From Streptomyces sp. PKU-EA00015 (GTDB lineage Bacteria; Actinomycetota; Actinomycetes; Streptomycetales; Streptomycetaceae), in assembly GCF_013387495.1 (NCBI RefSeq), contig NZ_JABZEE010000025.1, forward strand, positions 1 through 64,000: a stretch of 64,000 bases of DNA, written 5' to 3'. Each line of letters opens with the position of its first letter. The stretch's first letter is position 1. Both the position numbers and the translations under genes were made by a program. The notes beneath the pieces were generated by a model that saw only the letters and a program-made list of their open reading frames with translations, did no database searches and had not been told where the DNA came from. Of this stretch, positions 9,063-48,678 are shown piece by piece.

Positions 9063-9077
9063 CTGACGCACAGTCAG
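9063..9077. promoter_or_regulatory. Regulon operator copy 1
   Basis: CTGACG-CAC-AGTCAG, one mismatch to CTGACG-N3-CGTCAG. It lies just upstream of the ribosome-binding site of the divergent acyl-CoA ligase gene, so a bound repressor would block that promoter. Confidence 0.75.
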
Positions 9078-9106
9078 ATAGTGCGCAGAGCGTAGGGCTC
9101 CGCGCC

Positions 9107-9135
9107 TTGTCGGTCCAGGGGTGCGGGACTAGCCT
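9107..9135 (+). promoter_or_regulatory. Candidate promoter of the amidohydrolase/dehydrogenase operon
   Basis: TTGTCG (9107-9112) and TAGCCT (9130-9135) are separated by 17 bp, a good vegetative-type spacing. The predicted transcription start, about 9142, falls inside operator copy 2, as expected for repression by steric block. Confidence 0.5.
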
Positions 9136-9140
9136 GGAAG

Positions 9141-9155
9141 CTGACGACCCGTCAG
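9141..9155. promoter_or_regulatory. Regulon operator copy 2
   Basis: CTGACG-ACC-CGTCAG, a perfect 15-bp inverted repeat, 33 nt upstream of the GTG of the first amidohydrolase and over the predicted transcription start. Confidence 0.85.
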
Positions 9156-9188
9156 AAACGGTCGAACCCGTCCGCAGCGGAGGCCCCG

Positions 9189-10382
9189 GTGGAACAGGAA
9201 CTGCCCCGGATCGTGAGCGTCGACGACCATGTGATCGAGCCCGCGCACCTCTTCGAGACCTGGCTGCCGGCCCGGTACCGCGACCGCGGGCCCAAGCCGC
9301 TGACCGCGGGCATCGGCGAGCTCGCCTACGTGGGCGGCAAGTACCGCATCACGATGGACCCGGACGGGCCGCCGGCCGACTGGTGGATCTACGAGGACCT
9401 GAAGTTCCCGTACAAACGCAACATCGCCGCCGTCGGCTTCGACCGCGACGACATGACGCTGGAGGGCATCACACGCGCGGAGATGCGCCCCGGGTGCTGG
9501 GACCCGAAGGAACGGCTCAAGGACATGGATCTCAACCATGTCGAGGCGTCCCTGTGCTTCCCCACCTTCCCCCGCTTCTGCGGGCAGACCTTCGCCGAGG
9601 CCCACGACAAGGAGGTCGCCCTCGCCTGCGTCCGCGCCTACAACGACTGGATGGTCGAGGAGTGGTGCGGCGACAGCGGCGGCCGGCTCGTCCCCCTGTG
9701 CATCGTCCCGCTGTGGGACGTCGGCCTCGCGGTGGCGGAGATCCGGCGGAACGCCGCGCGGGGCGTGAAGGCGGTGACCTTCTCCGAGATCCCGACCCAC
9801 CTCGGGCTCCCGTCCATCCACTCCGGGTACTGGGACCCCTTCTTCGCCGCCTGCCAGGACACCGGCACAGTCGTCAACATGCACATCGGGTCCAGTTCCC
9901 AGATGCCCGCCGCGTCCCCCGACGCCCCGCCCGCCGTCCAGGCGTCGCTCAGCTTCAACAACGCCATGGCCTCGATGACGGACTTCCTCTTCAGCGGCGT
10001 CCTGGTGAGGTTCCCCCGGCTCACGCTCGCCTACAGCGAGGGACAGATGGGCTGGATCCCGTACGCCCTCGAACGGGCCGACGACGTGTGGGAGGAGCAC
10101 CGCGCCTGGGGCGGTGTGCGCGACCTGATCCCCGAACCGCCGTCCACCTACTACTACCGGCAGATCTTCTGCTGCTTCTTCCGTGACAAGCACGGCATCG
10201 CCTCGATCGACACCGTCGGCCGCGACAACGCCACCTTCGAGACCGACTACCCGCACGTCGACTCGACCTTCCCGCACACCAAGGAGGTCGCGCTCGACCA
10301 CGTGAAGGACCTCGACGACGAGACGGTGTACAAGCTCATGCGGGGCAACGCGATCCGCATGCTCGGCCTGGACCTCGTCTGA
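9189..10382 (+). CDS. Amidohydrolase-2 family metal-dependent hydrolase/decarboxylase
   Basis: 397 residues, a TIM-barrel protein of the amidohydrolase-2 group (relatives of ACMSD and gamma-resorcylate decarboxylase). Family landmarks are ISVDDHVIEP-type N-terminal ligands (here VSVDDHVIEP), SLCFPTFPRFCGQTF, RAYNDWMVEEWCG, the metal-binding histidine in VVNMHIGSSS, and the C-terminal ETDYPHVDSTFP Asp/His pair. The start is GTG with GGAGG 5 nt upstream. It is first in an operon: its TGA overlaps the ATG of the next gene by one base. A close paralogue lies at 44.4 kb, also under the palindrome. The reaction is unknown; C-C bond hydrolysis, lactonase or decarboxylase activity on an acyl-CoA-derived ring product are all possible. 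Confidence 0.9.
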   Translation: MEQELPRIVSVDDHVIEPAHLFETWLPARYRDRGPKPLTAGIGELAYVGGKYRITMDPDGPPADWWIYEDLKFPYKRNIAAVGFDRDDMTLEGITRAEMRPGCWDPKERLKDMDLNHVEASLCFPTFPRFCGQTFAEAHDKEVALACVRAYNDWMVEEWCGDSGGRLVPLCIVPLWDVGLAVAEIRRNAARGVKAVTFSEIPTHLGLPSIHSGYWDPFFAACQDTGTVVNMHIGSSSQMPAASPDAPPAVQASLSFNNAMASMTDFLFSGVLVRFPRLTLAYSEGQMGWIPYALERADDVWEEHRAWGGVRDLIPEPPSTYYYRQIFCCFFRDKHGIASIDTVGRDNATFETDYPHVDSTFPHTKEVALDHVKDLDDETVYKLMRGNAIRMLGLDLV

Positions 10383-11515
10383 TGGACCTGGGCAGTACGG
10401 CCGAGGAGGAGGAGTTCCGGGCCCGGCTGCGCGCCTGGCTCGACGTCGCCCTCCCCAAGCTCCCGCCCGCACCGCCGCCGGAGGACTGGCCGGCCCGGCG
10501 CGCGTACGACACCGCCTGGCAGCGCGCGCTGTACGACGCCGGGTACGGGGACGTGCACACGAACGCCCCGCCGGCCCTGCGGCTGGTCTTCCTGGAGGAG
10601 ACGGAGCTCGCCGGCGCCCCCTACGTCGGCGCCAACTTCGTCGGACTGCTCCACGCCGGGCCCACCATCGCCGCCGAGGGCACTCCCGGACAGCGGGAGC
10701 GCTGGCTGACGCCGATCCTGCGCGGCGACGAGATCTGGTGCCAGGGCTTCAGCGAACCGGACGCCGGCTCCGACCTCGCCTCGCTGCGCACCCGCGCCGT
10801 GCGCGACGGCGACGACTATGTCGTGACCGGCTCCAAGATCTGGACCTCGCACGCGGAGGTCGCCGACTGGTGCGAACTCCTCGTCCGCACCGGCTCCGAC
10901 ACCTGCGGACACCGCGGCATCACCTGGCTCGCCATGCCGATGGACGCCCCTGGCATCACCGTGCGGCCGCTGCGCACCCTTGCCGGATCGGCCGAGTTCG
11001 CCGAGGTGTTCCTCGACGAGGTGCGGGTGCCGGCGGACAACCGGGTGGGGGAGGAGAACGACGGCTGGCGGGTCACCATGATCACGCTCTCCTTCGAGCG
11101 CGGCACCGCCTTCGCCGGAGAGGTCGTCGCCTGCCGCCGCACCCTGGCCCGTCTGGCCCGCGCGGCCCGCGACAACGGCCGCTGGGACGACGCCGTGCTG
11201 CGTCGCAGACTCGGCAGGCTGAACGCCGAGTTCGCCGCCCTGTGGAGGCTCGTCCAGTGGAACGTGAGCGAGGCCTCCGCCACCGGCGGCGTCCCGGGCA
11301 CCGGCGGCTCCGTCTTCAAGCTCCGTTACTCGCACGCCCGTCAGGAGCTCTACGACGCGGCCGCCGACGTCCTCGGCCCCGACGCGTTCGACCTCGGCCA
11401 CGACTGGACACGCGACCGGCTCTCCTCCCTGTCGTACACGATCGCCGCCGGCACCTCGCAGATCCAGCGGAACATCGTCGCCGAGCGGATACTCGGCCTG
11501 CCGAAGGGGCGCTGA
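10382..11515 (+). CDS. Acyl-CoA dehydrogenase, large partner of a pair
   Basis: 377 residues. The FAD-dependent acyl-CoA dehydrogenase signatures are EIWCQGFSEPDAGSDLAS and the C-terminal FAD/catalytic loop SYTIAAGTSQIQRNIVAERILGLP. The Glu that is the catalytic base in many MCAD-type enzymes at the GTSQIQ segment is Ala here, so the base must come from elsewhere in the fold or from the partner subunit. It starts 1 nt into the amidohydrolase stop and itself overlaps the next dehydrogenase gene by one base (TGATG). Adjacent unlike dehydrogenase genes are typical of the alpha2beta2 enzymes of actinobacterial steroid side-chain degradation (FadE26/27 and FadE28/29 type), so a heterotetramer is likely. 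Confidence 0.92.
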   Translation: MDLGSTAEEEEFRARLRAWLDVALPKLPPAPPPEDWPARRAYDTAWQRALYDAGYGDVHTNAPPALRLVFLEETELAGAPYVGANFVGLLHAGPTIAAEGTPGQRERWLTPILRGDEIWCQGFSEPDAGSDLASLRTRAVRDGDDYVVTGSKIWTSHAEVADWCELLVRTGSDTCGHRGITWLAMPMDAPGITVRPLRTLAGSAEFAEVFLDEVRVPADNRVGEENDGWRVTMITLSFERGTAFAGEVVACRRTLARLARAARDNGRWDDAVLRRRLGRLNAEFAALWRLVQWNVSEASATGGVPGTGGSVFKLRYSHARQELYDAAADVLGPDAFDLGHDWTRDRLSSLSYTIAAGTSQIQRNIVAERILGLPKGR

Positions 11516-12390
11516 TGGACTTCCGGCTCACCGACGACCAGCGGGCCCTGCGCGCGGGCGTGCGTGCCCTGCTGTCGGCCCGCTTCGGGCGCGATGCGCT
11601 GCGCGCCGCCGTGGCGGAGCCCCGGCTCGACCGCGGGCTGTGGCGGGAGTTGGGGGCCGCCGGATTCTTCTCCCTGCGGCTTCCGGAGGCGGACGGCGGC
11701 GTCGGACTGGGCCTTGCGGAGGCGGTTCTCGCCTTCGAGGAGGCCGGCCGGGCCCTGCTGCCGGGCCCGTTGGTCGCCACGCACCTCGCGGCGGGCCGGA
11801 TCCCCGGCGCCGCCACCGGCGAGACGGTCGTCACCGCGTCCGACGGCGCGCTCGTGCCCTGGCTGGACGCCGCCGACGCCGTTCTCGGGGAACTCACCGA
11901 CCCCGTGCCCGTGCGGTCCCTCGACCCGCTGACGCCCCTGCACCGGGACACCGGCGGGCGCGGCGGGCCGCCCGATCCCGTCGCGGTGCTGCTCACCGCC
12001 GCCGAACAGCTCGGTTCGGCTGCCGGCACGACGGACACGGCCGCTCGATACGCCCGCGAACGCACCCAGTTCGGCCGGCCCATCGGCTCCTTCCAGGCCG
12101 TGGCGCACCTGTGCGCCGGCATGCTCGTCCGCACGGAGGTCGCCCGCTGCGCCGTCTACGCCGCGGCCGTCACCGCCGACCCCGTCGACATCGGCGGAGC
12201 CAAACTCCTCGCCGACGACGCGGCCGTGCAGGGGGCCCGGGACTGTCTCCAGGTCTTCGGCGGGATGGGCTTCACCTGGGAGTCGGACGTCCATCTCCAC
12301 CTCAAGCGTGCCTGGTTGCGGGCCGGGACGTGGCTCACGGCGGCGGAGGCGGAGGAGACGCAGGCGCAGGCATTGGCCTCAGCACTGTGA
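11515..12390 (+). CDS. Acyl-CoA dehydrogenase, short partner of a pair
   Basis: 291 residues, about 90 shorter than a complete acyl-CoA dehydrogenase. The N-terminal helical domain (FRLTDDQRALRAGVRALL) and the C-terminal helical domain (ARERTQFGRPIGSFQAVAH, QVFGGMGFTWESDVHLHLKRA) are present. The middle beta domain is strongly reduced, to about residues 90-150. Such short partners are known in heteromeric dehydrogenases, where only one subunit builds the full FAD and active site. It is translationally coupled to the previous gene by a TGATG overlap. It is the last gene of the operon; the next gene is separated by 377 bp. Confidence 0.9.
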   Translation: MDFRLTDDQRALRAGVRALLSARFGRDALRAAVAEPRLDRGLWRELGAAGFFSLRLPEADGGVGLGLAEAVLAFEEAGRALLPGPLVATHLAAGRIPGAATGETVVTASDGALVPWLDAADAVLGELTDPVPVRSLDPLTPLHRDTGGRGGPPDPVAVLLTAAEQLGSAAGTTDTAARYARERTQFGRPIGSFQAVAHLCAGMLVRTEVARCAVYAAAVTADPVDIGGAKLLADDAAVQGARDCLQVFGGMGFTWESDVHLHLKRAWLRAGTWLTAAEAEETQAQALASAL

Positions 12391-13282: not shown

Positions 13283-13301
13283 GGCCGTCTAGAGGACGGC
13301 C
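13283..13301. terminator. Hairpin between convergent genes
   Basis: GGCCGTC-TAGAG-GACGGCC, a 7-bp stem. It contains the TAG stop of the cyclase gene in its loop and lies 12 nt after the stop of the RsbW-like gene, so it can serve both strands. Confidence 0.55.
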
Positions 13302-14215
13302 ACCGGAGCGACGGGCGTGCCGGTGCCGCCGACGAACGGTTCCGGCATGGCGCACAGCAGGAAGGCGTGACGCCCCTGCTCCGCGCAGGCCGCGGACAGC
13401 TCCTCCAGGTTCCAGTTCTGGCCCTGGAGCAGGCCCATCTCCACCAGGTGGAGCGCGTGCACGGGCAGCCAGAGGTCCTCGATCTCCGGCGGGAAGATCT
13501 CGAAGGCGAGCGTGTCGTTGGCGACGGCCGCGACGTCACGGGCGTGGAACCACTCGGGCGTGCGGACGGACAGGCCGGGCGAGGGGTAGCCGTAGCCGTG
13601 CCTGTCCCCCTCCAGCAGGCGTCGCATCTGTCCCGTCCGTACGAGGACGATGTCACCGGACCGGACCGTGACCCCGCCGAACTCCGCGGCCTCGTTCAGG
13701 TCCTCGGGCGTGACGGCGTGGTCGCCGGGCAGCGCGTCCACGCCCTTCGCGCGGGCCACGTCCAGCAGGACGCCCCGTGAGACGACCGGCGGGACGGTGC
13801 CGATGCCGCTGAAGCCGGCGCCGCCGTGGGGAGTGATGGAGGCGGCGGGGCGGCCGTTGTAGAGCACGCCCGAGTGCGAGACGTGGGGGAGCGCGTCCCA
13901 GTGCGTCGCGCACTGCAGCCCCATCGTCACCACGTCGTCGCTAGTGGCGACGGTGCCGGGCCCGAAGAGCTCCTGGTTGATCTGCACCATGGTGTGCAGG
14001 GGGTTGACGCGCCCCGGAATGACGCCGGTCTGGACGCCGTCCTGCCGGAGCGGGAGCGCGAGTGGGATGCGCAGCCCCTGCGTGACGGTGGCGACGGCGT
14101 CCCGCACGACGGCCGGGGTGATCAGGTTCAGTGTGCCGATCTCGTCGTCGGCCCCCCACCGACCCCAGTTGTTGACGCGTTTCGCGATCTCGTGGAACGC
14201 GGCCGGCAGGGACAT
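13289..14215 (-). CDS. Cyclase-family (kynurenine-formamidase-like) metal hydrolase
   Basis: 308 residues of the cyclase family (PF04199), metal-dependent hydrolases that include kynurenine formamidase and isatin hydrolase. The metal-binding motif usually written HxGTHxDxPxH appears as LQCATHWDALPHV, with the second His and the Asp kept but the first His and the Gly not visible. SRGVLLDVAR and GDIVLVRTGQ are further family landmarks. The start faces the SDR gene; operator copy 3 lies 45 nt upstream, so both directions are probably controlled. Ring-lactone or amide hydrolysis within the catabolic pathway is plausible but unproven. Confidence 0.88.
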   Translation of the reverse strand: MSLPAAFHEIAKRVNNWGRWGADDEIGTLNLITPAVVRDAVATVTQGLRIPLALPLRQDGVQTGVIPGRVNPLHTMVQINQELFGPGTVATSDDVVTMGLQCATHWDALPHVSHSGVLYNGRPAASITPHGGAGFSGIGTVPPVVSRGVLLDVARAKGVDALPGDHAVTPEDLNEAAEFGGVTVRSGDIVLVRTGQMRRLLEGDRHGYGYPSPGLSVRTPEWFHARDVAAVANDTLAFEIFPPEIEDLWLPVHALHLVEMGLLQGQNWNLEELSAACAEQGRHAFLLCAMPEPFVGGTGTPVAPVAVL

Positions 14216-14260
14216 GGCGCCTCCGGGGGCTTGTGCTCGGGTGTCCGACGGGCCAAGAAT

Positions 14261-14275
14261 CTAACGGTCCGTCAG
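14261..14275. promoter_or_regulatory. Regulon operator copy 3
   Basis: CTAACG-GTC-CGTCAG, one mismatch. The symmetry extends outward (AAT before, ATT after), making 21 bp. It lies between the divergent cyclase and SDR genes, 21 nt before the SDR start. Confidence 0.8.
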
Positions 14276-14296
14276 ATTATGCGGGAAGGGGCCGGC

Positions 14297-15211
14297 GTGG
14301 GGAACTTCTTGGCAGGCAAGGTGGTTGCCGTGACCGGCGCGGGACGCGGCATCGGCCGCGCGGTCGCCCGCGCCGCCGCGGCCGAGGGCGCGAGGGTCGT
14401 CGTCAACGACTACGGCGTCTCCGTCGCGGGCGGCGAACCGACGAGCGAGATAGCGGCGGGCGTCGTCAAGGAGATCGAGGCGGCGGGCGGCGACGCGGTC
14501 GCGGTCGCCGACGACATCTCCACGATGGCGGGCGGGCAGCGGGTCGTCGACGTCGCGCTGGAGCGGTACGGGCGGCTCGACGGGGTCGTGTGCGTGGCCG
14601 GGATCCTGCGCGAGCGGATGCTGTTCCACATGACCGAGGAGGAGTGGGACCCGGTGGTCGCCACCCATCTCAAGGGGACGTTCACCGTCTTCCGGGCGGC
14701 GTCCGCGGTGATGCGGCGGCAGGGAGCGGGCACGCTGATCGGCTTCACCAGCGGCAACCACCAGGGATCGGTGTCCCAGGCCAACTACGCGGCGGCGAAG
14801 GGCGGCGTCATTTCGCTGGTCCGCAGCGCGGCGCTCGGCCTCCACAAGTACGGCGTCACGGCGAACGCGGTGGCTCCCGTCGCCCGCACCCGCATGTCCG
14901 CGAACGTCCCCCTGGAACTCACCGAGATCGGCGACCCGGAGGACGTGGCGGCGCTCGTGGTCTACCTGCTCTCCGACGCCGCGCACGCGGAGGGCATCAC
15001 GGGCCAGGTGTACACGGTGGCCGGCCCCAAGATCGCGGTCTGGGCCCAGCCGAGAGAACTTCGCGCGGCGTACGCGGAGGGCGGCGCCTGGACGCCGGAA
15101 CGGATCGCGCGCACCCTCCCGGGCACGGTGGGCACGGACCCGATGCCGCTGCTGTCGCAGGTCGCCGCCATGTCCGCAGCGGCGGCGCAGGGAGCCCGCC
15201 CGAACGCGTGA
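14297..15211 (+). CDS. SDR oxidoreductase (HSD17B4/hydroxyacyl-CoA dehydrogenase-like)
   Basis: 304 residues. Classical short-chain dehydrogenase: NAD(P)-binding TGAGRGIGRAVA, active-site FTSGNH region and catalytic NYAAAKG (YxxxK). The segment GILRERMLFHMTEEEWDPV is typical of the (3R)-hydroxyacyl-CoA dehydrogenases of peroxisomal MFE-2 type and mycobacterial steroid-side-chain enzymes. A roughly 50-residue C-terminal extension follows the usual end. GTG 14297 has GGAAGGGG 5 nt upstream, so it is preferred over ATG 14279, which would overlap the operator. It is controlled by operator copy 3. Confidence 0.88.
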   Translation: MGNFLAGKVVAVTGAGRGIGRAVARAAAAEGARVVVNDYGVSVAGGEPTSEIAAGVVKEIEAAGGDAVAVADDISTMAGGQRVVDVALERYGRLDGVVCVAGILRERMLFHMTEEEWDPVVATHLKGTFTVFRAASAVMRRQGAGTLIGFTSGNHQGSVSQANYAAAKGGVISLVRSAALGLHKYGVTANAVAPVARTRMSANVPLELTEIGDPEDVAALVVYLLSDAAHAEGITGQVYTVAGPKIAVWAQPRELRAAYAEGGAWTPERIARTLPGTVGTDPMPLLSQVAAMSAAAAQGARPNA

Positions 15212-20522: not shown

Positions 20523-20535
20523 GCTCCCATTGAAC

Positions 20536-20550
20536 CTGACGGAACGTCAG
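20536..20550. promoter_or_regulatory. Regulon operator copy 4
   Basis: CTGACG-GAA-CGTCAG, perfect, with AC/GT extending the symmetry to 19 bp. It lies immediately upstream of the flavin reductase gene. Confidence 0.85.
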
Positions 20551-20584
20551 GTGAGAATGCCCGGTGCGCGACCTGGACGGGCGC

Positions 20585-23607: not shown

Positions 23608-23655
23608 CGCAGGTCCCCGCTCCCGCTCGACGGTGCGGGCCGACTGGCCCGATAA

Positions 23656-23670
23656 CTGACGCACAGTCAG
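23656..23670. promoter_or_regulatory. Regulon operator copy 5
   Basis: CTGACG-CAC-AGTCAG, one mismatch and identical to copy 1. It overlaps a TAACCT -10-like hexamer on the minus strand, 48 nt upstream of the ligase start. Confidence 0.75.
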
Positions 23671-23679
23671 GTTAGCGAA

Positions 23680-23694
23680 CTGACGAAGCGTCAG
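23680..23694. promoter_or_regulatory. Regulon operator copy 6
   Basis: CTGACG-AAG-CGTCAG, perfect. Its centre is 24 bp from copy 5, so the two dimers could bind the same promoter side by side. Confidence 0.85.
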
Positions 23695-25187: not shown

Positions 25188-25213
25188 ATTCCATTCGGGG
25201 AGAGGGAACGGCC

Positions 25214-27984: not shown

Positions 27985-27988
27985 GTTT

Positions 27989-37013: not shown

Positions 37014-37024
37014 CTCCACACTCC

Positions 37025-38173
37025 TCACGTACGCAGCAGAAGGGCCGATGTGGGCACGCCCTCGCCCGCGGTGACCAGGCACGTCGCCGCGCCCGGCACC
37101 TGGGCCGTCGACGTGCCGCGCAGTTGCTTCACGCCCTCGTTGATCAGGTTGAAGCCGTGCACGTACGCCTCGCTCAGCCCGCCCCCGCCGGTGTTGAGCG
37201 GCAGCCGTCCGCCGATCTCCAGTGCCCCGCCCTCCGTGAAGGCGCCGCCCTCGCCCCTCCCGCAGAAGCCGTAGCCCTCCAGGGACAGGGGGACGAGCGG
37301 TGTGAACGCGTCGTAGATCTGGGCCACGTCGACGTCATCGGGGCCGAAGTCGGCGTGCTTCCACAGCTGCCGGGCCGCCGTCCAGGCCGGGCCGGTGAGC
37401 GGGTCGTCGTTCCAGTAGTTGACCATGCCGTGGTGCTGGGCGGGCAGGCCCTGGGCGGCCGAGTGGACGTAGACGGGCCGCCGGCGGCAGTCGCGGGCCC
37501 GTTCGGCGGAGACGACCACGCAGGCGAGGGCGCCGTCGGTCTCCAGGCAGTTGTCGAACAGGCACAGCGGTTCGCTGATCCAGCGGGCCGTCATGTACAT
37601 CTCGCGGGTCAGCGGCCGGTCGTACATGATCGCGGCCGGGTTCTGGTTGGCCCTGTTCCTGCACGCCAGGGCGACGTTGAAGAAGTGGTCGCGGGTCGCG
37701 CCGTGCTCGTGCATGTAGCGGCGGGCGAGCATGCCGATCTCGTCGGCGGGCCGCAGCAGCCCGAAGGGGCGTGTCCACTGGGCGGGTGTGGGCAGTTGGG
37801 CCGTCGTGTTCCTCCAGGGGCGTGGGCCCGAGCCGCGTTTGCGGGAGCGCCAGGCGACGCCGACGGTCGCCTGTCCGGTGGCTATCGCGGTGGCGAGGTG
37901 CGCGACGGTGGCGCAGGAGCCCCCGCCGCCGAAGCCCACCCGGGAGAGGAACGTGACGTCCCCGGCGCCGATCGCCTTCGCGAGCTCGACCTCGTCCGTC
38001 TCCTCCATCGTGTACGAGGCGAAGGCATCGACCTCCGACGGTGCGATGCCGGCGTCGTCGAGTGCGGCGAGCACCGCCCGGCAGGCCAGGGCCTTCTCGG
38101 ATTCCGGCAGGTGTTTCGCGAAGGCGGTCTGTCCTGTGCCGGCTATCGCCGCCCGGTCCTTGAGGGTCGCCAT
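37025..38173 (-). CDS. SCP-x/Ltp-type thiolase-fold protein 2
   Basis: 382 residues. It begins KDRAAIAGTGQTAFAKHLPESE, typical of the lipid-transfer (Ltp) thiolase group. Active-site landmarks are SRVGFGGGGSCATVAHLATA, DVAQIYDAFTPLVPLSLEGYGFC and PLNTGGGGLSEAYVHGFNLI. It is paired in an operon with DUF35 protein 2. The promoter looks exact: CTGACG (-35, half of operator copy 10), 17 bp, TACGCT (-10), 7 nt, ATG, so the message is leaderless and the repressor would sit on the -35 box. Confidence 0.9.
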   Translation of the reverse strand: MATLKDRAAIAGTGQTAFAKHLPESEKALACRAVLAALDDAGIAPSEVDAFASYTMEETDEVELAKAIGAGDVTFLSRVGFGGGGSCATVAHLATAIATGQATVGVAWRSRKRGSGPRPWRNTTAQLPTPAQWTRPFGLLRPADEIGMLARRYMHEHGATRDHFFNVALACRNRANQNPAAIMYDRPLTREMYMTARWISEPLCLFDNCLETDGALACVVVSAERARDCRRRPVYVHSAAQGLPAQHHGMVNYWNDDPLTGPAWTAARQLWKHADFGPDDVDVAQIYDAFTPLVPLSLEGYGFCGRGEGGAFTEGGALEIGGRLPLNTGGGGLSEAYVHGFNLINEGVKQLRGTSTAQVPGAATCLVTAGEGVPTSALLLRT

Positions 38174-38194
38174 GCCGGGCAGCGTACAGCTAAT

Positions 38195-38209
38195 CTGACG
38201 TACCGTCAG
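38195..38209. promoter_or_regulatory. Regulon operator copy 10
   Basis: CTGACG-TAC-CGTCAG, perfect. It lies between the divergent thiolase and FadD3-like ligase genes, 21 and 19 nt from their starts, and probably controls both. Confidence 0.88.
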
Positions 38210-38228
38210 CTAACGAGAGGGGCTTGCG

Positions 38229-39800
38229 ATGCGACGCGGCGACCTGGAGTGGGGCTCCGTCCCGGGGCTGGTGCGGGACGCGGCCGAGCGGTACGGGCAA
38301 CGGGAGGCCGTCGTCGACGGCCGCACCCGCGTCACCTACGCCGAACTCGGCGACCGCGTCGAACGCGCCGCCGCCGCGTGCATCGCCTCCGGCGTCGCCA
38401 AGGGGGACCGGGTCGCGATCTGGGCGCCCAACACCCTCGACTGGATCGTCTCCGCGCTCGGCGCGGTCACCGCGGGTGCCGTCCTCGTCCCCCTCAACAC
38501 CCGCTTCAAGGGCGCCGAGGCCGCCGACGTCCTGCGGCGCTCCCGCGTCCGGCTCCTGTTCGTCACCGGGACCTTCCTCGGCACCTCGTACGTCGCCTCG
38601 CTGCGCCGCGCCGACCAGGAACTGCCCGACCTGGAACAGATCGTGGTCCTCGCCGACAGCGCGCCCGACGACCCCCGCTACCGCACCTGGAAGGACTTCC
38701 TCGCGGGCGGCGACTTTGTCACCGGCGGCGAGGTCCGGGCCCGCGCGGACACCGTCACCGGTGCCGACCCGTCCGACATCGTGTACACGTCGGGCACCAC
38801 CGGCCGCCCCAAGGGCGCGGTCATCACCCACGCCCAGACGCTGCGCTGCTACGACCTGTGGAGCGAACTCGCCGGGCTGCGCGCGGGCGACCGCTATCTG
38901 ATCGTGAACCCGTTCTTCCACACCTTCGGCTACAAGGCGGGCGTGATCGCCTGCCTCACCCGCGGCGCGACGATGGTGCCGCAGCCCGTCTTCGACGTGG
39001 ACACGGTCCTCGCCAACATCGCCGCCGAACGGATCTCGGTCCTGCCCGGACCGCCGACCCTGCACCAGTCGCTGCTCGACCACCCCGCCCGCGACCGGCA
39101 CGACCTGTCGGCCCTGCGCCTCGTGGTGACCGGGGCCGCGGTCGTGCCCCTCCGCCTCGTCGAACGCCTCCGCGGCGAACTCGGCGTGCCCACCGTGCTG
39201 ACCGCCTACGGCCTGTCCGAGGCGAGCGGCATCGTCACCATGTGCCGTCGCGGCGACGCCCCGTCGGTGATCGCCGCGACCTCGGGCCGCGCGATCCCCG
39301 GCACGGAGGTGAGGGTCCTCGCCGCGCCCGGCGAACCGGGCGAGATCCTGGTCCGCGGGCACAACGTGATGACGGGCTACTTCGAGGACCCGGCCGAGAC
39401 GTCCCGGGCCCTCACCCCGGACGGCTGGCTGCACACGGGCGACGTGGGCGTCCTCGACGCGGACGGCAACCTGCGCATCACCGACCGGATCAAGGACATG
39501 TTCATCGTCGGCGGCTTCAACGCCTATCCCGCGGAGATCGAGCAACTGCTCGGCCTGCACCCCGACATCGCGGACGTGGCGGTGATCGGCGTCCCGGACC
39601 CCCGCCTCGGCGAGGCCGGCAAGGCGTACGCGGTCCGCCGCCCGGGCACGACGCTCACGGCGGACGACCTGGTCGCCTGGTCGAGGCGGGAGATGGCGAA
39701 CTACAAGGTGCCGCGGCAGGTGGAGTTCGTGGACGAACTCCCGAGGAACGCGAGCGGGAAGGTGCTCAAGGCCGAACTGCGGTCGCGGCACGCCGGCTGA
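38229..39800 (+). CDS. FadD3-like acyl-CoA ligase
   Basis: 523 residues of the AMP-forming ligase family. Motifs: VYTSGTTGRPKGAVITH, LTAYGLSEASG, LHTGDVGVLD, RIKDMFIVGGFNAYPAEIEQ and the terminal Lys in NASGKVLKAEL. Long stretches such as VLPGPPTLHQSLLDHPARD and NPFFHTFGYKAGVIACLTRG closely follow, from memory, mycobacterial FadD3, the HIP-CoA synthetase that activates the C/D-ring remnant of steroids. Substrate identity is not proven. GAGAGGGG precedes the ATG. It is divergent from the thiolase/DUF35/crotonase operon under the shared operator copy 10. Confidence 0.9.
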   Translation: MRRGDLEWGSVPGLVRDAAERYGQREAVVDGRTRVTYAELGDRVERAAAACIASGVAKGDRVAIWAPNTLDWIVSALGAVTAGAVLVPLNTRFKGAEAADVLRRSRVRLLFVTGTFLGTSYVASLRRADQELPDLEQIVVLADSAPDDPRYRTWKDFLAGGDFVTGGEVRARADTVTGADPSDIVYTSGTTGRPKGAVITHAQTLRCYDLWSELAGLRAGDRYLIVNPFFHTFGYKAGVIACLTRGATMVPQPVFDVDTVLANIAAERISVLPGPPTLHQSLLDHPARDRHDLSALRLVVTGAAVVPLRLVERLRGELGVPTVLTAYGLSEASGIVTMCRRGDAPSVIAATSGRAIPGTEVRVLAAPGEPGEILVRGHNVMTGYFEDPAETSRALTPDGWLHTGDVGVLDADGNLRITDRIKDMFIVGGFNAYPAEIEQLLGLHPDIADVAVIGVPDPRLGEAGKAYAVRRPGTTLTADDLVAWSRREMANYKVPRQVEFVDELPRNASGKVLKAELRSRHAG

Positions 39801-40303: not shown

Positions 40304-43261
40304 TCAGGCGGCGCTCAGCGGAGTGGTGAGCAGTTGCCGGGCCTCCTCGGCCTCCACAGCGCCGGACTGCTCGTGCAGGGCCAGCGCCTCACGCCAGCAG
40401 GCACGGGCACGGTCCGACTGGCCGAGAGCTTCGAGCGCCCGGCCGAGCGTGATCAGTACCTTGCCCCGTGTGCGGTCTCCGCCGATGCAGCCGATGGCCA
40501 GTGCTTGCTCGGCATGCTGTGCAGCTCCTGCGGGGCGACGGGCGGACAAGTGGGCCTCGGCGATGCGGAAGTGAGTGGTCCCCTCCCACAGCCGCTGGCG
40601 GTTGGCCTCGAACTGGGCCAAGGCCTCCGTCAGTTGCTTCAACGCCTCGGAATGCTTGCCTGCCGCCGTGAGTGCGATGCCCAGCGCGAATCGCGCATTG
40701 GCCAGGCGCAGCTTGTGCCCGATCCTGTCGTATATGGCGAGGCCCTCCCGGGCCAGCGTGATGGCTTGCGAGGCCCGGCCCGTGACGACGTGCACGCGTG
40801 AGAGGTTGCACAGCGCACTGGCTTCGCCGGGCAGATTGCCGTCGGCGCGCGAGCCCTCCATGGCGTTGCGCAGGTGTTCCTCGGCCTGCGCGTTGCGCCC
40901 CTGGTTGAACGCGATGATGCCGCGATCGTTGTCCGACCAGTACACCGGAGCCGGATCGTCAGAGGCCTTCGCCAGCGCGGCCGCCTGTGCGGCCTCCTCG
41001 TCCGCCTCCGCGTAACGGCCTGCCACCAGATGGACATTGGTGAGGGAAGTCCTCGCGCGGGCTTCCGTACGCCTGTCACCGGCGGCTCGCGCAGCATCGA
41101 AAGCAAGGAAGGCCGTCGCCTCGTACGTCTTGGAGTTGGCCCCGGACTCGGCCAGATTCTGGGCTGCCCACAGCAGGTCCACCGCCCGCCGGAGTTGCTT
41201 CCCGCTGGACGCCTGGCGCGCGCATGCCAGCAGGCAGTGCGCCTCGGCGTAGAGCCAGTCCTGGGCCTCCTGCCGGTCGGCGAACGACAGCCCGGCATCC
41301 CCGGTCGGCTCCAGATGGTCCACCAGCCGGTCGCCGGGGCGCTCCATGGCGAACACCCGCGCCGCCGTCCCCAGATAGAAGTCCAGCAGCCGCGACAGCG
41401 CCGCCTCCCGCTCCTGCGGCGGATGTTCGTCGCGCTCCGCGCATGCACGCGCGTAGAGCCTCACGAGGTCGTGGTAGCGGTAGCGGCCCGGCGCCGCCGA
41501 CTCCAGCAGGGACGTGTCGACCACAGCCTCGAGCAGGTCCTCCGTCTCGTGGAGGGGGAGGTCCAGCACCGCCGCGGCCGCCGCCAGCGAGATGTCCGGG
41601 CCGTCCGCCAGGCCCAGCAGGCGGAAGGCGCGGGCCTGGGCCGGTTCCAGCTGGCCGTAGCCCAGCTCGAACGTCGCCTTCACCGCCAGGTCGCCCGCCT
41701 GGAGCTCGTCCAGTCTGCGGCGTTCGTCCGCGAGCTTGGCCGCCAGGACCGAGACGGTCCACGTCCGGCGCGACGCGAGGCGGGACGCGGCGATACGGAT
41801 CGCCAGCGGCAGGAACCCGCACGCCGCGACCACGTCCAGTGCCGACTCCCGCTCCGCACGCACCCGTTCCTCGCCCACGATCCGCGTGAAGAGCTGCAGC
41901 GCCTCCTCCGGCGACATCACGTCCAGGTCCACCAGGTGCGCTCCCGCGAGGTCCACCATCCGCACCCGGCTGGTGATCAGCGCCGCGCATCCGGCCGTGC
42001 CCGGCAGCAGGGGCCGGATCTGGGCCGCGTCGCGTGCGTTGTCCAGCAGGACGAGCACCCGGCGCCCGTCCAGCGTCGAGCGGTACAGCGCGGCCCGCTC
42101 GTCCAGGGTGTCCGGGATCGCGGAGTCCGCCGCGCCCAGGGCGCGCAGGAACGCGCCGAGCACGGTCTCCGGCTCGGCGGCCCGGTTGCCCGCGCCCTGG
42201 AGGTCCACGTACAGCTGTCCGTCCGGGAAGTGCTTGCGCGCCTGGTGGGCGACGTGCACCGCCAGCGTCGTCTTGCCGACGCCGCCGATGCCCGCGAGGG
42301 CGGAGACCGCCATCACCGAGCCCTCGGCGGCGGCGAGCTGGTCGCCCAGCTCCCGTACGAAGGAGGAACGGCCGGTGAAGTCCGAGACGGTGGCCGGAAG
42401 TTGTGCGGGGCGCGTGACCTGCGGCGCGGGTGACGGCTCCTCTACCGGCCGCGCCAGCTCCGCGTCCGCCTGGAGGATGCGCTGCTGGAGGCGGGCCAGC
42501 TCGGGCCGCGGGTCGACGCCCAGTTCGTCGGCGAGCAGACGCCGTGTGTCGGCGTAGACGGCCAGGGCCTCCGCCTGCCGTCCGCTGCGGTACAGCGCGA
42601 GCATCAGCAGTTCCCGCAGCCGCTCACGCAGCGGATGCGCGGCGGTGAGCGCGGTCAGTTCCGAGACGGCCTCGGCGTGGCAGCCGAGCTCCAGGTCCAG
42701 GTCGAGGCGGGTCTCCAGCAGTTGCAGCCGCCACTCCTCCAGCCGCGTGCGCTGGTTCTCCGCGTACGGCCCGGGGACGTTGGCCAGCGGCTCGCCGTCC
42801 CACAGGCCCAGCGACTTGTTGATCAGCGTCCGGGCCTGGGAACGGTCGCCGGCGGAGCGCGCCTTGTCCGCCTCCGCGGCGAGTTCCTCCGCCACGGCGA
42901 GGTCGAGCGCGCCGCGCCCCACCCGCAGGGCGTAACCGCCCGACTCGGTCACGAGCGCGGCGGCGGGCAGGGACTTGCGCAGCCGGGAGGCGTACGTGCG
43001 AACGGCGGCGAGGGCCTGCGAGGGCGGTTCCTCGCCCCAGATCGCGTCGATCAGCTCCGACGCCGTCGCGGTCCGGCCGTCGCGCAGCAACAGCGCGGCG
43101 AGCAGGGCTCGTTGCTGTGGCGAGCCGGGCGGCAGGGTCTCCGCGCCCCGCCTGACCCGGACCGGCCCGAGCACGCTGAAGTGGAGCCGGGCCGCGTCGT
43201 CCGCTCCGCTGTGCAGCGGAGCGCGCTGATTCGGTACGCGTGGCCCGCTGTCACGGTCCAT
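40304..43261 (-). CDS. afsR: AfsR, SARP-STAND global regulator of antibiotic synthesis
   Basis: 985 residues. The N-terminal OmpR-type winged helix (FSVLGPVRVRRGAETLPPGSPQQRALLAALLLRDG) and BTAD domain (about 125-270) make the SARP part. A STAND NTPase follows with the Walker A motif GIGGVGKTTLAVH near residue 324 and a Walker B-like RRVLVLLDNARDA. TPR-like helices fill about 640-985. AfsR, phosphorylated by AfsK and other kinases, binds the afsS promoter. The RALLAALLLRDGRTATASE stretch is almost identical to S. coelicolor AfsR as I recall it. GGGGGC lies before the ATG. Its distance from afsK, about 6 kb with other genes between, differs from a compact cluster. Confidence 0.96.
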   Translation of the reverse strand: MDRDSGPRVPNQRAPLHSGADDAARLHFSVLGPVRVRRGAETLPPGSPQQRALLAALLLRDGRTATASELIDAIWGEEPPSQALAAVRTYASRLRKSLPAAALVTESGGYALRVGRGALDLAVAEELAAEADKARSAGDRSQARTLINKSLGLWDGEPLANVPGPYAENQRTRLEEWRLQLLETRLDLDLELGCHAEAVSELTALTAAHPLRERLRELLMLALYRSGRQAEALAVYADTRRLLADELGVDPRPELARLQQRILQADAELARPVEEPSPAPQVTRPAQLPATVSDFTGRSSFVRELGDQLAAAEGSVMAVSALAGIGGVGKTTLAVHVAHQARKHFPDGQLYVDLQGAGNRAAEPETVLGAFLRALGAADSAIPDTLDERAALYRSTLDGRRVLVLLDNARDAAQIRPLLPGTAGCAALITSRVRMVDLAGAHLVDLDVMSPEEALQLFTRIVGEERVRAERESALDVVAACGFLPLAIRIAASRLASRRTWTVSVLAAKLADERRRLDELQAGDLAVKATFELGYGQLEPAQARAFRLLGLADGPDISLAAAAAVLDLPLHETEDLLEAVVDTSLLESAAPGRYRYHDLVRLYARACAERDEHPPQEREAALSRLLDFYLGTAARVFAMERPGDRLVDHLEPTGDAGLSFADRQEAQDWLYAEAHCLLACARQASSGKQLRRAVDLLWAAQNLAESGANSKTYEATAFLAFDAARAAGDRRTEARARTSLTNVHLVAGRYAEADEEAAQAAALAKASDDPAPVYWSDNDRGIIAFNQGRNAQAEEHLRNAMEGSRADGNLPGEASALCNLSRVHVVTGRASQAITLAREGLAIYDRIGHKLRLANARFALGIALTAAGKHSEALKQLTEALAQFEANRQRLWEGTTHFRIAEAHLSARRPAGAAQHAEQALAIGCIGGDRTRGKVLITLGRALEALGQSDRARACWREALALHEQSGAVEAEEARQLLTTPLSAA

Positions 43262-44293: not shown

Positions 44294-44331
44294 CGTGGAG
44301 TTCATGGTGACTTCGGGGCGGTCGCCGCTAG

Positions 44332-44346
44332 CTGACGAACCGTCAG
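44332..44346. promoter_or_regulatory. Regulon operator copy 11
   Basis: CTGACG-AAC-CGTCAG, perfect. Its first half can serve as -35 box: 17 bp later comes TACCGT (44355-44360), then 7 nt to ATG 44368, the same geometry as at the thiolase gene at 38.2 kb. Confidence 0.88.
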
Positions 44347-44367
44347 ATAAGCGCTACCGTGAGGGGA

Positions 44368-45588
44368 ATGGAGACCTTCCCCAAGATCATCTCGGTGGAC
44401 GACCACACGGTGGAGCCCCCCCATGTCTGGCGGGACCGGCTCCCGTCGAAGTACCGCGACACCGGCCCGCGCGTCGTCAGGGCCCCGCTGAAGGACATGA
44501 CCTTCCTCGGCGGAAAGTTCTCGCCGGTCATGGGGGCGCCCGGCGACGACGGCCCGATCGGCGACTGGTGGGTGTACGAGGACCTGCATCGCCCCCTGAC
44601 CCGGCTCGACACGGCCGTCGGGTACGACAGGGACGAGATCAAGCTGGAGATCATCACCTACGAGCAGATGCGCCCGGGGTCGTACTCCGTGCCCGACCGG
44701 CTCGCCGACATGGACGTCAACCACGTCCAGTCCGCGCTCTGCTTCCCGACCTTCCCCCGCTTCTGCGGCCAGACCTTCACCGAGGCCGCCGACCGGGAGC
44801 TCGGCCTGCTGGGCGTGCGGGCGTACAACGACTGGATGGTGGAGGAGTGGTGCGGCCCCGAGGCCCGCGGCCGGCTGATCCCGCTCACCCTCGTCCCGCT
44901 GTGGGACGCCCGCCTCGCCGCCGACGAGGTCCGGCGCAACGCGGCACGCGGGGTGCGCGCGGTCGCCTTCTCCGAGATACCCCCGCACCTCGGACTGCCG
45001 TCCATCCACACCGACGCGTGGGACCCGTTCCTCGCGGCGTGCGACGAGACCGGCACGGTCGTCGCCATGCACATCGGCTCGTCCTCGAAGATGCCCTCGA
45101 CGTCGGCGGACGCCCCGCCGGCCGTGGGGTCGACCATCACCTTCGCCAACTGCTGCTTCTCGATGGTGGACTGGCTGATGAGCGGAAAGTTCGAACGCTT
45201 CCCGAACCTGCGGATCATGTACGCCGAGGGCCAGATCGGCTGGATCCCCTACATCCTGGAACGGGCCGACGTGGTCTGGGAGGAGAACCGCGCCTGGGGC
45301 GGCGTCGCCGACAAGGTCACCCGCCCGCCCTCCGAGCTGTTCGCCGAGCATGTGTACGGCTGCTTCTTCGACGACGCCTTCGGCCTGCGGAACCTGCACG
45401 CGATCGGCGCGGGCAACGTGCTGTACGAGACGGACTACCCGCACTCGGACTCGACGTGGCCGAAGTCGAAGGAGGTCGGCGAGTCCCAGATGGCCCACCT
45501 CCCCCCGGACGTGGTGAACCGCATCGTGCGCGGCAACGCGATCGACCTGCTGGGCCTGACGGAGGACGGTTTGTGGGCGGGGGCGTGA
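44368..45588 (+). CDS. Amidohydrolase-2 family protein, paralogue of the 9.2-kb gene
   Basis: 406 residues. Same family and landmarks as the 9.2-kb protein: IISVDDHTVEP, ALCFPTFPRFCGQTF, RAYNDWMVEEWCG, VVAMHIGSSS and ETDYPHSDSTWP. The two share most conserved blocks and probably act on related substrates. I choose ATG 44368, not GTG 44359: the operator-linked promoter predicts a leaderless transcript starting there, and the protein then begins METFPK like its paralogue's MEQELP. It is a single-gene unit under operator copy 11. Confidence 0.92.
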   Translation: METFPKIISVDDHTVEPPHVWRDRLPSKYRDTGPRVVRAPLKDMTFLGGKFSPVMGAPGDDGPIGDWWVYEDLHRPLTRLDTAVGYDRDEIKLEIITYEQMRPGSYSVPDRLADMDVNHVQSALCFPTFPRFCGQTFTEAADRELGLLGVRAYNDWMVEEWCGPEARGRLIPLTLVPLWDARLAADEVRRNAARGVRAVAFSEIPPHLGLPSIHTDAWDPFLAACDETGTVVAMHIGSSSKMPSTSADAPPAVGSTITFANCCFSMVDWLMSGKFERFPNLRIMYAEGQIGWIPYILERADVVWEENRAWGGVADKVTRPPSELFAEHVYGCFFDDAFGLRNLHAIGAGNVLYETDYPHSDSTWPKSKEVGESQMAHLPPDVVNRIVRGNAIDLLGLTEDGLWAGA

Positions 45589-46782: not shown

Positions 46783-46841
46783 GCGGCGCAGGGGCCTTGC
46801 CTCATGGACCGCTGGGCAAGACCATGGGCGGGCCGTCGTTT

Positions 46842-46856
46842 GTGACGGTCCGTCAG
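46842..46856. promoter_or_regulatory. Regulon operator copy 12
   Basis: GTGACG-GTC-CGTCAG, one mismatch, 17 nt upstream of the LLM oxidoreductase start and partly preceding its GAGGAG ribosome-binding site. Confidence 0.78.
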
Positions 46857-46873
46857 ATACGAGGAGTTCCTCC

Positions 46874-47794
46874 ATGGTCGCGTACGGGATGCAGCTCCCG
46901 GTCCAGTCCCAGAGCGCCCTCTACGCCGAGGCCTGGGAGGCCGACGCCGGGCCGGGCGCGCTCGTCGAGATCGCCCGCGCCGCCGACCGCGCCGGTTTCG
47001 CGTACATCGCCGTCTGCGATCACGTCGCGATCCCGCGCCGTCTCGCCGATGCCATGTCCACCGTCTGGTACGACCCCGTCGCCACGCTCTCCCACCTCGC
47101 GGCGGTCACCGAACGCGTCCGCCTCCTGAGCCATGTCGCCGTCGTCGGACTGAGGCATCCCCTGCTGACCGCCAAGCAGTTCGCGACCCTCGACCACCTC
47201 TCCGGCGGGCGGCTGATCCTCGGGGTCGGCGCGGGGCATGTGCGTGAGGAGTTCGACGCGCTCGGCGTCGGCTTCGACGACCGCGGACCCGTGCTGGACG
47301 AGACCGTCGACGCGCTGCGGGCGGCGCTCGGCCCGGAGGATTTCCCCGAGTTCACCGGGGAGCGGTACTCCTTCAAGGACCTGGGGCAACGGCCCCGGCC
47401 CGCCCAGGAGCGCGTACCCCTCTGGGTCGGCGGCTCCTCGCCCGCCGCCGTCCGCCGCGCCGCGCTCAAGGGTGACGGCTGGCTGCCGCAGGGCGACCCG
47501 CGCGACCGGCTGCCCGCGCAGATCGCCCGCATCAGGACGCTGCGCGAGAAGGCCGGGATCGAGGCGCCCTGCGTGATCGGCGCCATCACCGAACCGCTCT
47601 ACGTCGGCGAACCCGCCTGGCACACCGGCCGCAGGACCCTCACCGGCGGGCCGCAGGCCCTCGCCGATGCGTTGCGCGCCTACACGGTGATGGGCGTGGA
47701 CCAGATCCAGGTCCGCTTCCGCAGTCGCGGCGTGGCCGAACTGACGGACCAGATGGCGGCGTTCGCCGCCGACGTGGCCCCCCGGCTCGGATGA
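46874..47794 (+). CDS. LLM-class (luciferase-like) oxidoreductase 1, probably F420-dependent
   Basis: 306 residues, TIM-barrel luciferase-like monooxygenase fold. FAYIAVCDHVAIPRRL, LSHVAVVGLRHPLLTAKQFATLDHLSGGRLILGVGAGH and RVPLWVGGSSPAAVRRAAL are family landmarks; the size and the GVGAGHVREEFDALG block fit F420-using members. It is first in an operon with an SDR gene 37 nt downstream, under operator copy 12. It could reduce or oxygenate a ring intermediate. FbiC at the right end of the window would help supply F420. Confidence 0.88.
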   Translation: MVAYGMQLPVQSQSALYAEAWEADAGPGALVEIARAADRAGFAYIAVCDHVAIPRRLADAMSTVWYDPVATLSHLAAVTERVRLLSHVAVVGLRHPLLTAKQFATLDHLSGGRLILGVGAGHVREEFDALGVGFDDRGPVLDETVDALRAALGPEDFPEFTGERYSFKDLGQRPRPAQERVPLWVGGSSPAAVRRAALKGDGWLPQGDPRDRLPAQIARIRTLREKAGIEAPCVIGAITEPLYVGEPAWHTGRRTLTGGPQALADALRAYTVMGVDQIQVRFRSRGVAELTDQMAAFAADVAPRLG

Positions 47795-47831
47795 CCCTCG
47801 AACCATCCTCCAACGACCAGGGAGACTCGGC

Positions 47832-48584
47832 ATGGGCAAGCTGGACGGACGCGTCGTGTTCATCACCGGCGCGGCACGCGGGCAAGGCGAGGCCGAGGCC
47901 CGGCTCTTCACGGCGGAGGGCGCACACGTGGTCCTCGCCGACGTCCTCGACGAGCAGGGCGGGAAGCTCGCCGAGGAACTGGGGGCCCTGTACGTCCACC
48001 TGGACGTGAGCCGGGAGGACGACTGGACCGCCGCGGTCGCCGCCGCGAAGGACGCCTTCGGACGCGTCGACGGCCTGGTCAACAACGCGGGCATCCTGCG
48101 CTTCAACGAGCTGGTCGGCACGCCGCTGGAGGAGTTCCAGCTCATCACCCAGGTGAACCAGGTCGGCGCGTTCCTCGGGATCAAGACGCTCGCCCCGGAG
48201 ATCGAGGCCGCCGGCGGCGGGACGATCGTCAACACCGCCTCGTACACGGCGCTGACGGGCATGGCGTACGTCGGCGCGTACACCGCGTCCAAGCACGCCG
48301 TCCTCGGCCTGACCAGGGTCGCCGCGCTGGAGCTCGCCGGGCGGGGGATCCGGGTCAACGCCGTGTGCCCGGGCGCGGTGGACACCCCGATGAGCAATCC
48401 GGAGGGCGCGGACCCCGGAGCGATCGAGGAGCTGTACCGCACGCTCGTGCCGCTCGGCCGGGTCGGGCGGCCGGAGGAGGTCGCGCGGCTCGCGCTCTTC
48501 CTGACCGGTGAGGACTCCTCGTACATCACGGGTCAGCCGTTCGTCATCGACGGGGGATGGCTCGCCGGGGTCAGCGTGCTGTGA
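47832..48584 (+). CDS. SDR oxidoreductase (3-alpha/20-beta-hydroxysteroid dehydrogenase-like)
   Basis: 250 residues. Cofactor loop TGAARGQGEAEA, NNAG motif LVNNAGILRFNE, catalytic NTASYTAL Ser and YTASKHAV Tyr/Lys, and the terminal VTG-DGGW type end ITGQPFVIDGGW. Asp in VVLADVLDEQG favours NAD(H). The pattern follows Streptomyces 3-alpha,20-beta-hydroxysteroid dehydrogenase and related FabG3 proteins, consistent with oxidation of a ring or side-chain hydroxyl group. It is probably in one operon with the preceding LLM gene. Confidence 0.9.
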   Translation: MGKLDGRVVFITGAARGQGEAEARLFTAEGAHVVLADVLDEQGGKLAEELGALYVHLDVSREDDWTAAVAAAKDAFGRVDGLVNNAGILRFNELVGTPLEEFQLITQVNQVGAFLGIKTLAPEIEAAGGGTIVNTASYTALTGMAYVGAYTASKHAVLGLTRVAALELAGRGIRVNAVCPGAVDTPMSNPEGADPGAIEELYRTLVPLGRVGRPEEVARLALFLTGEDSSYITGQPFVIDGGWLAGVSVL

Positions 48585-48601
48585 CACGGCCGGGGCCAGG
48601 G

Positions 48602-48616
48602 CTGACGGATCGTCAG
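48602..48616. promoter_or_regulatory. Regulon operator copy 13
   Basis: CTGACG-GAT-CGTCAG, perfect, just after the SDR stop and 85 nt before the next LLM gene. Confidence 0.85.
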
Positions 48617-48663
48617 GTATTGCGTTCCCGTCCGGGCGGTGGAACAGTCGGAGCCATCCTCAT

Positions 48664-48678
48664 CTGACGAAGCGTCAG
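48664..48678. promoter_or_regulatory. Regulon operator copy 14
   Basis: CTGACG-AAG-CGTCAG, perfect, identical to copy 6. Its centre is 62 bp from copy 13 (about six helical turns), so two dimers could lie on the same face or loop the promoter. Confidence 0.87.

Follow-up and report, generated by a model that had tools for sequence, protein, structure and literature searches.

A recurrent palindrome as candidate operator of a TetR_C_38 regulator of acyl-CoA catabolism in Streptomyces

The palindrome CTGACG-N3-CGTCAG recurs between genes in a 64,000-nucleotide stretch of the 7.70-Mb genome of Streptomyces sp. PKU-EA00015 (contig NZ_JABZEE010000025.1, C78:1-64000 in our numbering, hereafter the window), and it is very probably the core of a 19-bp operator at which a TetR_C_38 regulator of the SCO4421 family would repress the catabolism of bulky acids until released by an acyl-CoA. 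Comparison of genomes from several actinobacterial families placed the sites close upstream of predicted start codons, ahead of putative catabolic genes and also in or close to the promoter of the regulator's own gene. The TetR protein is the best-supported candidate for the binding factor because sites occur at tetR promoters in several families, the same kinds of targets recur in family f16, and the number of sites tracks the tetR gene in two families. These observations support the proposal of a sequence-only reading of the window that its copies form a palindromic-operator regulon of acyl-CoA catabolism. The regulon stands, but the pathway appears more specific than general acyl-CoA catabolism, as its enzymes include Ltp2/ChsH2-type, paired acyl-CoA dehydrogenase (ACAD)-type and DitZ/PtmU3-type proteins.

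Results

Operator copies in the window and the extended dyad

A search with the 12 fixed positions of CTGACG-N3-CGTCAG found 14 copies in the window, of which seven are perfect (cores starting at 9141, 20536, 23680, 38195, 44332, 48602, and 48664) and seven carry one mismatch (9063, 14261, 23656, 25173, 27989, 28040, and 46842). Dinucleotide shuffles of the window (n = 100) gave a mean of 0.76 and a maximum of three copies and never reached 14, so a chance origin was rejected. Gene calls made with a codon-based gene caller written for the analysis placed all 14 sites between genes, eight in divergent and six in tandem promoter-type gaps. Ten distinct gaps are involved, four of which hold paired sites, for example 23656/23680, 24 bp apart, and the distance from site to start was below 30 bp in 11 of 22 cases. 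The count, the mismatches and the intergenic placement given by the sequence-only reading were all recovered. Its description of a 14-member set holds for the window and leaves out both promoter-type copies elsewhere in the genome and a degenerate two-mismatch copy on the tetR start codon (30021-30039, core 30023-30037). Its statement that genes of other kinds have no site is correct for the window, where the AraC-type, AfsR-like and MFS genes have none of their own, except that the gap of site 44332 is common to an amidohydrolase gene, which starts 21 bp away, and a deacetylase gene, with a called start at a distance of 130 bp; outside the window the statement fails.

The 12-position core proposed earlier is real, but the dyad is longer, and its full form is A-N-CTGACG-N3-CGTCAG-N-T, 19 bp. 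In the window, A is found at -2 in 11/14 sites and T at +2 in 10/14 (base frequency 0.136; 0.136-0.159 across all comparisons), with perfect extended matches at 20536, 38195, and 44332. Neither position was part of the search pattern, and the extension is therefore an independent check. Promoter sites from 80 Streptomyces loci carried A(-2) in 160/212 and T(+2) in 186/212 cases, although many of these sites are orthologous, so the set is not independent. The corresponding values were 22/38 and 26/38 for two further Streptomyces and 18/32 and 21/32 for f16. Alignment of 243 distinct promoter sites showed a symmetric extension, with A(-2) at 77% and T(+2) at 87%, and gave a ATCTGACGNNNCGTCAGAT-like consensus.

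Conservation in Streptomyces and other families

From 507 reported relatives, 80 named tetR loci were kept, all from Streptomyces and 91-97% identical, and these were scanned up to 10 kb on each side (1.46 Mb in total). They contained 53 perfect and 218 one-mismatch sites (reversed pattern, 0 and 8), and sites were near tetR in 71 of the 80 loci. The 271 sites comprised 220 in divergent and 35 in tandem gaps, nine in coding sequence, two at gene edges, one in a convergent gap and four undetermined; the first two classes thus took up 255/271, whereas three control patterns matched mostly in coding sequence (29 of 36 matches). The commonest targets were the ACAD_B/Thiolase_A and FadD_B/Thiolase_B promoters; the former carries a site in 63 loci as counted from the ACAD_B side and in 66 as counted from the Thiolase_A side. 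Distances from site to start were less than 60 bp in 271 of 475 cases. In two more Streptomyces genomes, 24 of the 27 perfect sites examined (from a total of 37) were promoter-type.

The f16 sample comprised 25 of 42 perfect sites in three genomes, taken from stretches chosen for clustering and from single loci. Twenty-three of these were promoter-type (15 divergent and 8 tandem) and two were coding. Their neighbors include homologues of SDR_A (63% identical), aldehyde dehydrogenase (63%), luciferase-like enzymes, ACAD and acyl-CoA ligase, as well as thiolase, P450, wax-ester-synthase-type and esterase genes, and for two operator-adjoining f16 genes the best match in the window was amidohydrolase B, at 65-66% identity.

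Co-occurrence of the palindrome and tetR was assessed in 246 genomes of the class, compared within families, with family f15 left out of the statistics. Perfect copies numbered 14, 14, 13, 14, 7, 10, and 6 in tetR-positive f16 genomes and 10, 0, 0, 0, and 1 in tetR-negative ones; in f20 they numbered 1, 3, 6, 4, 9, and 6 with tetR and 0-5 in 14 other genomes. One-sided Mann-Whitney tests gave P values of 0.008 (f16) and 0.006 (f20), which are indicative because the species are related.

The TetR_C_38 regulator and its own promoter

Among the genes scanned, the interval holds one TetR gene, at 29382-30029 on the minus strand, which encodes the proposed repressor. Its product scores 26.8 bits with TetR_N and 243 bits with TetR_C_38, a family that 118 of the 119 genomes in the order encode, nearly always in single copy, and its predicted model has a TetR-like fold. 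Next to the TetR gene come a glyoxalase-domain gene and then one for an AfsK-like kinase, and by this gene order beside the AfsK-like kinase gene the window TetR likely corresponds to Streptomyces coelicolor SCO4421, a likeness of position and not of compared sequences. The accessible portion of PMC3878966 places the SCO4421 tetR gene close to afsK and describes its expression as whiA-dependent and in spores; that portion gives no targets or operator.

A two-mismatch copy of the palindrome overlaps the tetR ATG in all 80 Streptomyces loci, with constant place and mismatch number. Seven further families (f3, f6, f14, f15, f16, f20, and f24) supplied 23 tetR genes, of which 7/23 had a copy with no more than one mismatch between -200 and +60, counted from the point that aligns with the start in Streptomyces. 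The f20 proteins start further upstream, and the range was therefore widened to -420 to +40, which revealed 17 such sites in 13 of the 23 genes: 5/5 in f16, 6/6 in f20, 1/1 in f14 and 1/5 in f15. At the same threshold and range, no site was found for the tetR genes of f3 (0/4), f24 (0/1) and f6 (0/1), and the reversed, spacer-2, spacer-4 and spacer-5 control patterns gave no match in any of the 23 genes. The recognition-helix motif ATFYQYF is identical in all tetR homologues among the matches listed. Upstream of tetR, loci L016-L095 share a strongly conserved block (CCCCATTTGCA and GGTAAGCTGACGGCATG), and a -10-like TAAGCT lies directly before the tetR ATG, which would fit a leaderless transcript.

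The structure of the TetR protein was predicted from 20 near-identical rows with a pLDDT of 71.9, and fold matches are weak evidence for that reason. The closest fold is that of EthR (TM about 0.71 by query), and acyl-CoA-binding FadR structures rank below EthR but within the first 50 matches.

Sites elsewhere in the genome

The whole genome contains 12 perfect copies, seven of them in the window, compared with one for the reversed pattern. With up to one mismatch there are 105 copies versus 17 for the control, so single-mismatch copies outside the window are mixed with noise. When as many as two mismatches are allowed in the 19-bp pattern, the values are 102 and 27, so that two-mismatch sites outside the window are not readable one by one; with at most one mismatch there are 19 sites, of which 12 are in the window, five outside are promoter-type and two outside lie in called coding sequence. 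We examined 21 outside sites, picked partly for their flanks, of which 13 are promoter-type. Fitting neighbors (located by contig) include an SDR gene (C78:70378), a dehydratase-DUF35 fusion and an ACAD gene (both C13), a P450 gene (C73), PNPOx, isochorismatase and polyketide-cyclase-like genes (C111) and aldehyde dehydrogenase and metallo-hydrolase genes (C74). Sites also adjoin genes of non-catabolic kind, encoding a PDZ/Lon-type protease, an AraC-type regulator and a type III polyketide synthase, while EamA transporter and histidine kinase genes adjoin sites that each have a more fitting divergent partner. The site at C1:71051 does not fit, its neighbor at 177 bp being a gene for an AraC/DJ-1-type regulator. 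Three identical one-mismatch copies at C78:74211, 74346, and 74616 (L191), spaced 135 and 270 bp, lie in one long gene and are probably an internal repeat and not operators.

Genes adjoining the operators

Operator 1 (9061-9079; core 9063-9077, one mismatch) lies 16 bp before the start of FadD_A, an AMP-dependent acyl-CoA ligase with a Pfam AMP-binding match (7556-9046, minus strand), and operator 2 (9139-9157; core 9141-9155, perfect) lies in the divergent promoter between FadD_A and Amidohydro_2 protein A (9189-10382, plus). The latter is followed on the plus strand by acyl-CoA dehydrogenase A (10382-11515) and a second protein judged by eye to be acyl-CoA-dehydrogenase-like (11515-12390), likely the partner in a heteromeric pair. 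Operator 3 (14259-14277; core 14261-14275, one mismatch) is in the divergent promoter of a putative cyclase (13289-14215, minus) and SDR oxidoreductase A (14297-15211, plus; start at 14279 according to the gene caller). Operator 4 (20534-20552; core 20536-20550, perfect) is next to a flavin reductase (19911-20522, minus), for which the closest NCBIfam model is HsaB at 203 bits, under the cut-off of 230. Operators 5 (23654-23672; core 23656-23670, one mismatch) and 6 (23678-23696; core 23680-23694, perfect) adjoin an ADP-forming acyl-CoA synthetase (21376-23607, minus) that is followed by an enoyl-CoA hydratase (20585-21385, minus). Operator 7 (25171-25189; core 25173-25187, one mismatch) is in the divergent promoter of a flavin-binding monooxygenase (23878-25059, minus) and a DoxX-like protein (25214-25666, plus; weak match), the latter followed by a DUF35/ChsH2-type OB protein (25663-26061, plus). 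A 103-base tRNA-His called by ARAGORN at 26427-26529 overlaps a PNPOx gene on the opposite strand and is probably a false positive.

Operators 8 (27987-28005; core 27989-28003) and 9 (28038-28056; core 28040-28054), each with one mismatch, lie between the SCP-x thiolase/Ltp2-like protein A (Thiolase_A; 26815-27984, minus) and acyl-CoA dehydrogenase B (ACAD_B; 28080-29291, plus), the best PDB match of which is Tcur3481. Operator 10 (38193-38211; core 38195-38209, perfect) is in the divergent promoter of the Ltp2-like retro-aldolase candidate B (Thiolase_B; 37025-38173, minus) and acyl-CoA ligase FadD_B (38229-39800, plus); DUF35 partner B (36591-37019, minus) and enoyl-CoA hydratase B (35803-36594, minus) lie beyond Thiolase_B. 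Operator 11 (44330-44348; core 44332-44346, perfect) precedes Amidohydro_2 protein B, which is DitZ/PtmU3-like (44368-45588, plus), and operator 12 (46840-46858; core 46842-46856, one mismatch) precedes luciferase-like oxidoreductase A (46874-47794, plus) and SDR B (47832-48584, plus). The perfect operators 13 (48600-48618; core 48602-48616) and 14 (48662-48680; core 48664-48678) precede luciferase-like oxidoreductase B (48702-49823, plus), which may form an operon with 50030-51769 and an aldehyde dehydrogenase gene (51766-53220). AfsK-like kinase, glyoxalase-domain and AfsR-like genes are interleaved with the regulon (30285-34424 and 40304-43261). In G014 (L244 5651), an operator lies in a gap common to the amidohydrolase B and AfsR homologues, so that AfsR expression might be touched there.

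The nearest solved sequence relatives of both Amidohydro_2 proteins are DitZ (8uyr) and PtmU3 (6omp), at about 128-196 bits, with DitZ first and PtmU3 next in each case; both relatives act in diterpenoid pathways. Thiolase_B and DUF35 partner B, encoded by neighboring genes, best match chains A (6ok1_A, E 1e-98) and B (6ok1_B, ChsH2 DUF35), respectively, of the Ltp2-ChsH2 complex of Thermomonospora curvata (6ok1). The catalytic tyrosines of TcLtp2 are given in the accessible part of PMC12329534 as Tyr294, in a YDHF motif, and Tyr344. By counting on the alignment, Thiolase_B has a tyrosine at both positions, whereas Thiolase_A, judged by eye without alignment, has a cysteine at the place of the second. 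Both window proteins have YDAF in place of YDHF, a change of His to Ala.

Discussion

We propose that a dimeric TetR_C_38 protein would bind the dyads and block the catabolic genes together with its own gene, and that an acyl-CoA intermediate of the pathway would bind the helical ligand domain and release the repressor. FadD and the ADP-forming synthetase would activate the substrate, the acyl-CoA dehydrogenases, hydratases, SDR, flavin and amidohydrolase-fold enzymes would oxidize it, and Ltp2-ChsH2-type retro-aldol cleavage would then shorten it; we take it to be a bulky carboxylic acid of polycyclic or isoprenoid structure.

Several observations weigh against this proposal. Sites are missing from nine of the 80 related loci, including four full-length ones. 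The copy at the tetR start in Streptomyces carries two mismatches, and the four f3 tetR starts show one two-mismatch copy, two three-mismatch copies and one case with no clear copy. Related genomes are not independent, which makes the P values optimistic; one tetR-negative f16 genome, 68% complete, has 10 copies, other tetR-negative genomes reach five, and tetR-positive Streptomyces range from 1 to 20 perfect copies. Seven of the 21 flank-picked outside sites are coding and one is at a gene edge, the perfect sites C15:871, C74:14673, and C82:10561 have no recognizable catabolic neighbor, and the coding and convergent sites of the 80 loci are also partly extended (5/11 and 4/11). SlmA structures appear among the first 50 fold matches of the TetR model, as do those of FadR. 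Deletion of SCO4421 had no detected phenotype according to the accessible part of PMC3878966. Finally, five f15 genomes (G130, G152, G169, G184, and G199) have 109-218 perfect copies each in a non-promoter pattern.

The f15 copies exceed the control pattern, which gave 0-1 copies per genome, and 160 kb of f15 sampled blind contained two perfect and 19 one-mismatch copies, with none for the reversed and spacer-4 patterns. The 36 sites examined in G130, from a total of 135, comprised 16 coding, 11 convergent, eight tandem and one divergent; convergent sites often have TGA stops inside the arms, and the A/T extension is largely missing (8/36 and 10/36, P 0.013). With its many copies and a TetR_C_38 relative, f15 was considered as support for the operator and dropped on account of the non-promoter placement and the sparse extension. 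Palindrome counts by stem gave no account of the f15 excess. We treat f15 as a matter separate from the operator regulon of Streptomyces and f16.

These same f15 copies, 11/36 between convergent genes and 16/36 in coding sequence, would suit a palindrome that acts as a transcription-terminator hairpin or is a dispersed repeat. Such a role is highly improbable, as only 1/271 sites in Streptomyces and 0/36 in f16 are convergent and the A/T extension, nearly missing in f15, is strong in both groups; with convergent placement almost never seen there, the terminator reading was rejected for Streptomyces and f16. It is quite unlikely that a different regulator binds the operator and that tetR is just one more target, although the degenerate copy at the tetR start in Streptomyces, the 10 copies in the incomplete tetR-negative f16 genome and the outside site near the AraC/DJ-1-type gene would fit that arrangement. 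Motif number following tetR within f16 and f20, the motif upstream of tetR in f14, f16, and f20, the conserved recognition helix of the TetR protein and the lack of any site of their own at the window's AraC-type, AfsR-like and MFS genes all argue for the TetR protein.

We also consider it unlikely that the dyad-binding protein is an activator or that the regulon serves steroid degradation proper, which the Ltp2/ChsH2-like and HsaB-like proteins of the set might suggest. The short distances from site to start in the 80 loci are a repressor-like position. KshA_C (PF19298) was not found in the genome, in a search lacking a strong positive control (1/14 control genomes matched, below cut-off), and the steroid pathway is missing from 55 of 57 Streptomyces genomes surveyed, according to the accessible part of PMC4810484. 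Both observations weaken steroid degradation as the pathway and, together with the Ltp2/DUF35, Tcur3481 and DitZ/PtmU3 matches, lead us to infer that the substrate is a bulky isoprenoid or polycyclic acid, not a complete steroid.

The TetR_C_38 repressor proposed here is found in nearly every Streptomyces and, with a promoter reported as spore-specific, had no known job; it now gains a defined candidate operator, an explicit list of targets and a pathway open to test. The enzymes among these targets suggest that bulky isoprenoid or polycyclic acids are degraded by a route not described so far, and they include possible Ltp2-type aldolases and amidohydrolase-fold oxygenases from organisms other than steroid degraders. 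A broader and rather doubtful extension is that Streptomyces might possess, across the genus, an undescribed catabolic route for some polycyclic or isoprenoid acid, which could be one of its own lipids, using retro-aldol chemistry of the steroid side-chain type without steroid degradation, and that its repression by spore-expressed SCO4421 among the afsK-afsR genes might couple lipid turnover and development; in f15, a relative that shares the recognition helix may have turned to binding dispersed non-promoter sites.

Our search of the open-licence PMC literature found neither the operator nor such a regulon, in agreement with the earlier statement that no regulon with this operator was described. 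The regulon is new and of a TetR-operator kind that is already known. The promoter-independent spread of sites typical of SlmA was not seen in Streptomyces or f16, and the regulator scores 30.5 bits with the NCBIfam SlmA model (cut-off 120); the f15 pattern resembles such a dispersed spread, but the extended dyad is largely missing from it. The effectors of the TetR repressor MftR are long-chain acyl-CoAs, and its operator, T-N2-GGCA-N5-TGCC-N2-A, is unlike CTGACG-N3-CGTCAG (PMC8728441, in its accessible part). Regulators of the EthR/FadR type are alike in fold, with low sequence identity. In mycobacteria and rhodococci, cholesterol catabolism is repressed by the TetR proteins KstR and KstR2, and KstR palindromic operators precede acyl-CoA, SCP-x, ACAD and SDR operons. 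In a PDB search with the TetR protein, KstR matched only at E 0.076-0.094 over the helix-turn-helix, which does not indicate orthology, and KstR2 was not among the matches listed (60 rows); the KstR/KstR2 operator consensus also differs from the present palindrome. The plan shared with KstR and KstR2 is that palindromic operators of a TetR regulator precede several catabolic operons; here the targets would include enzymes of side-chain type.

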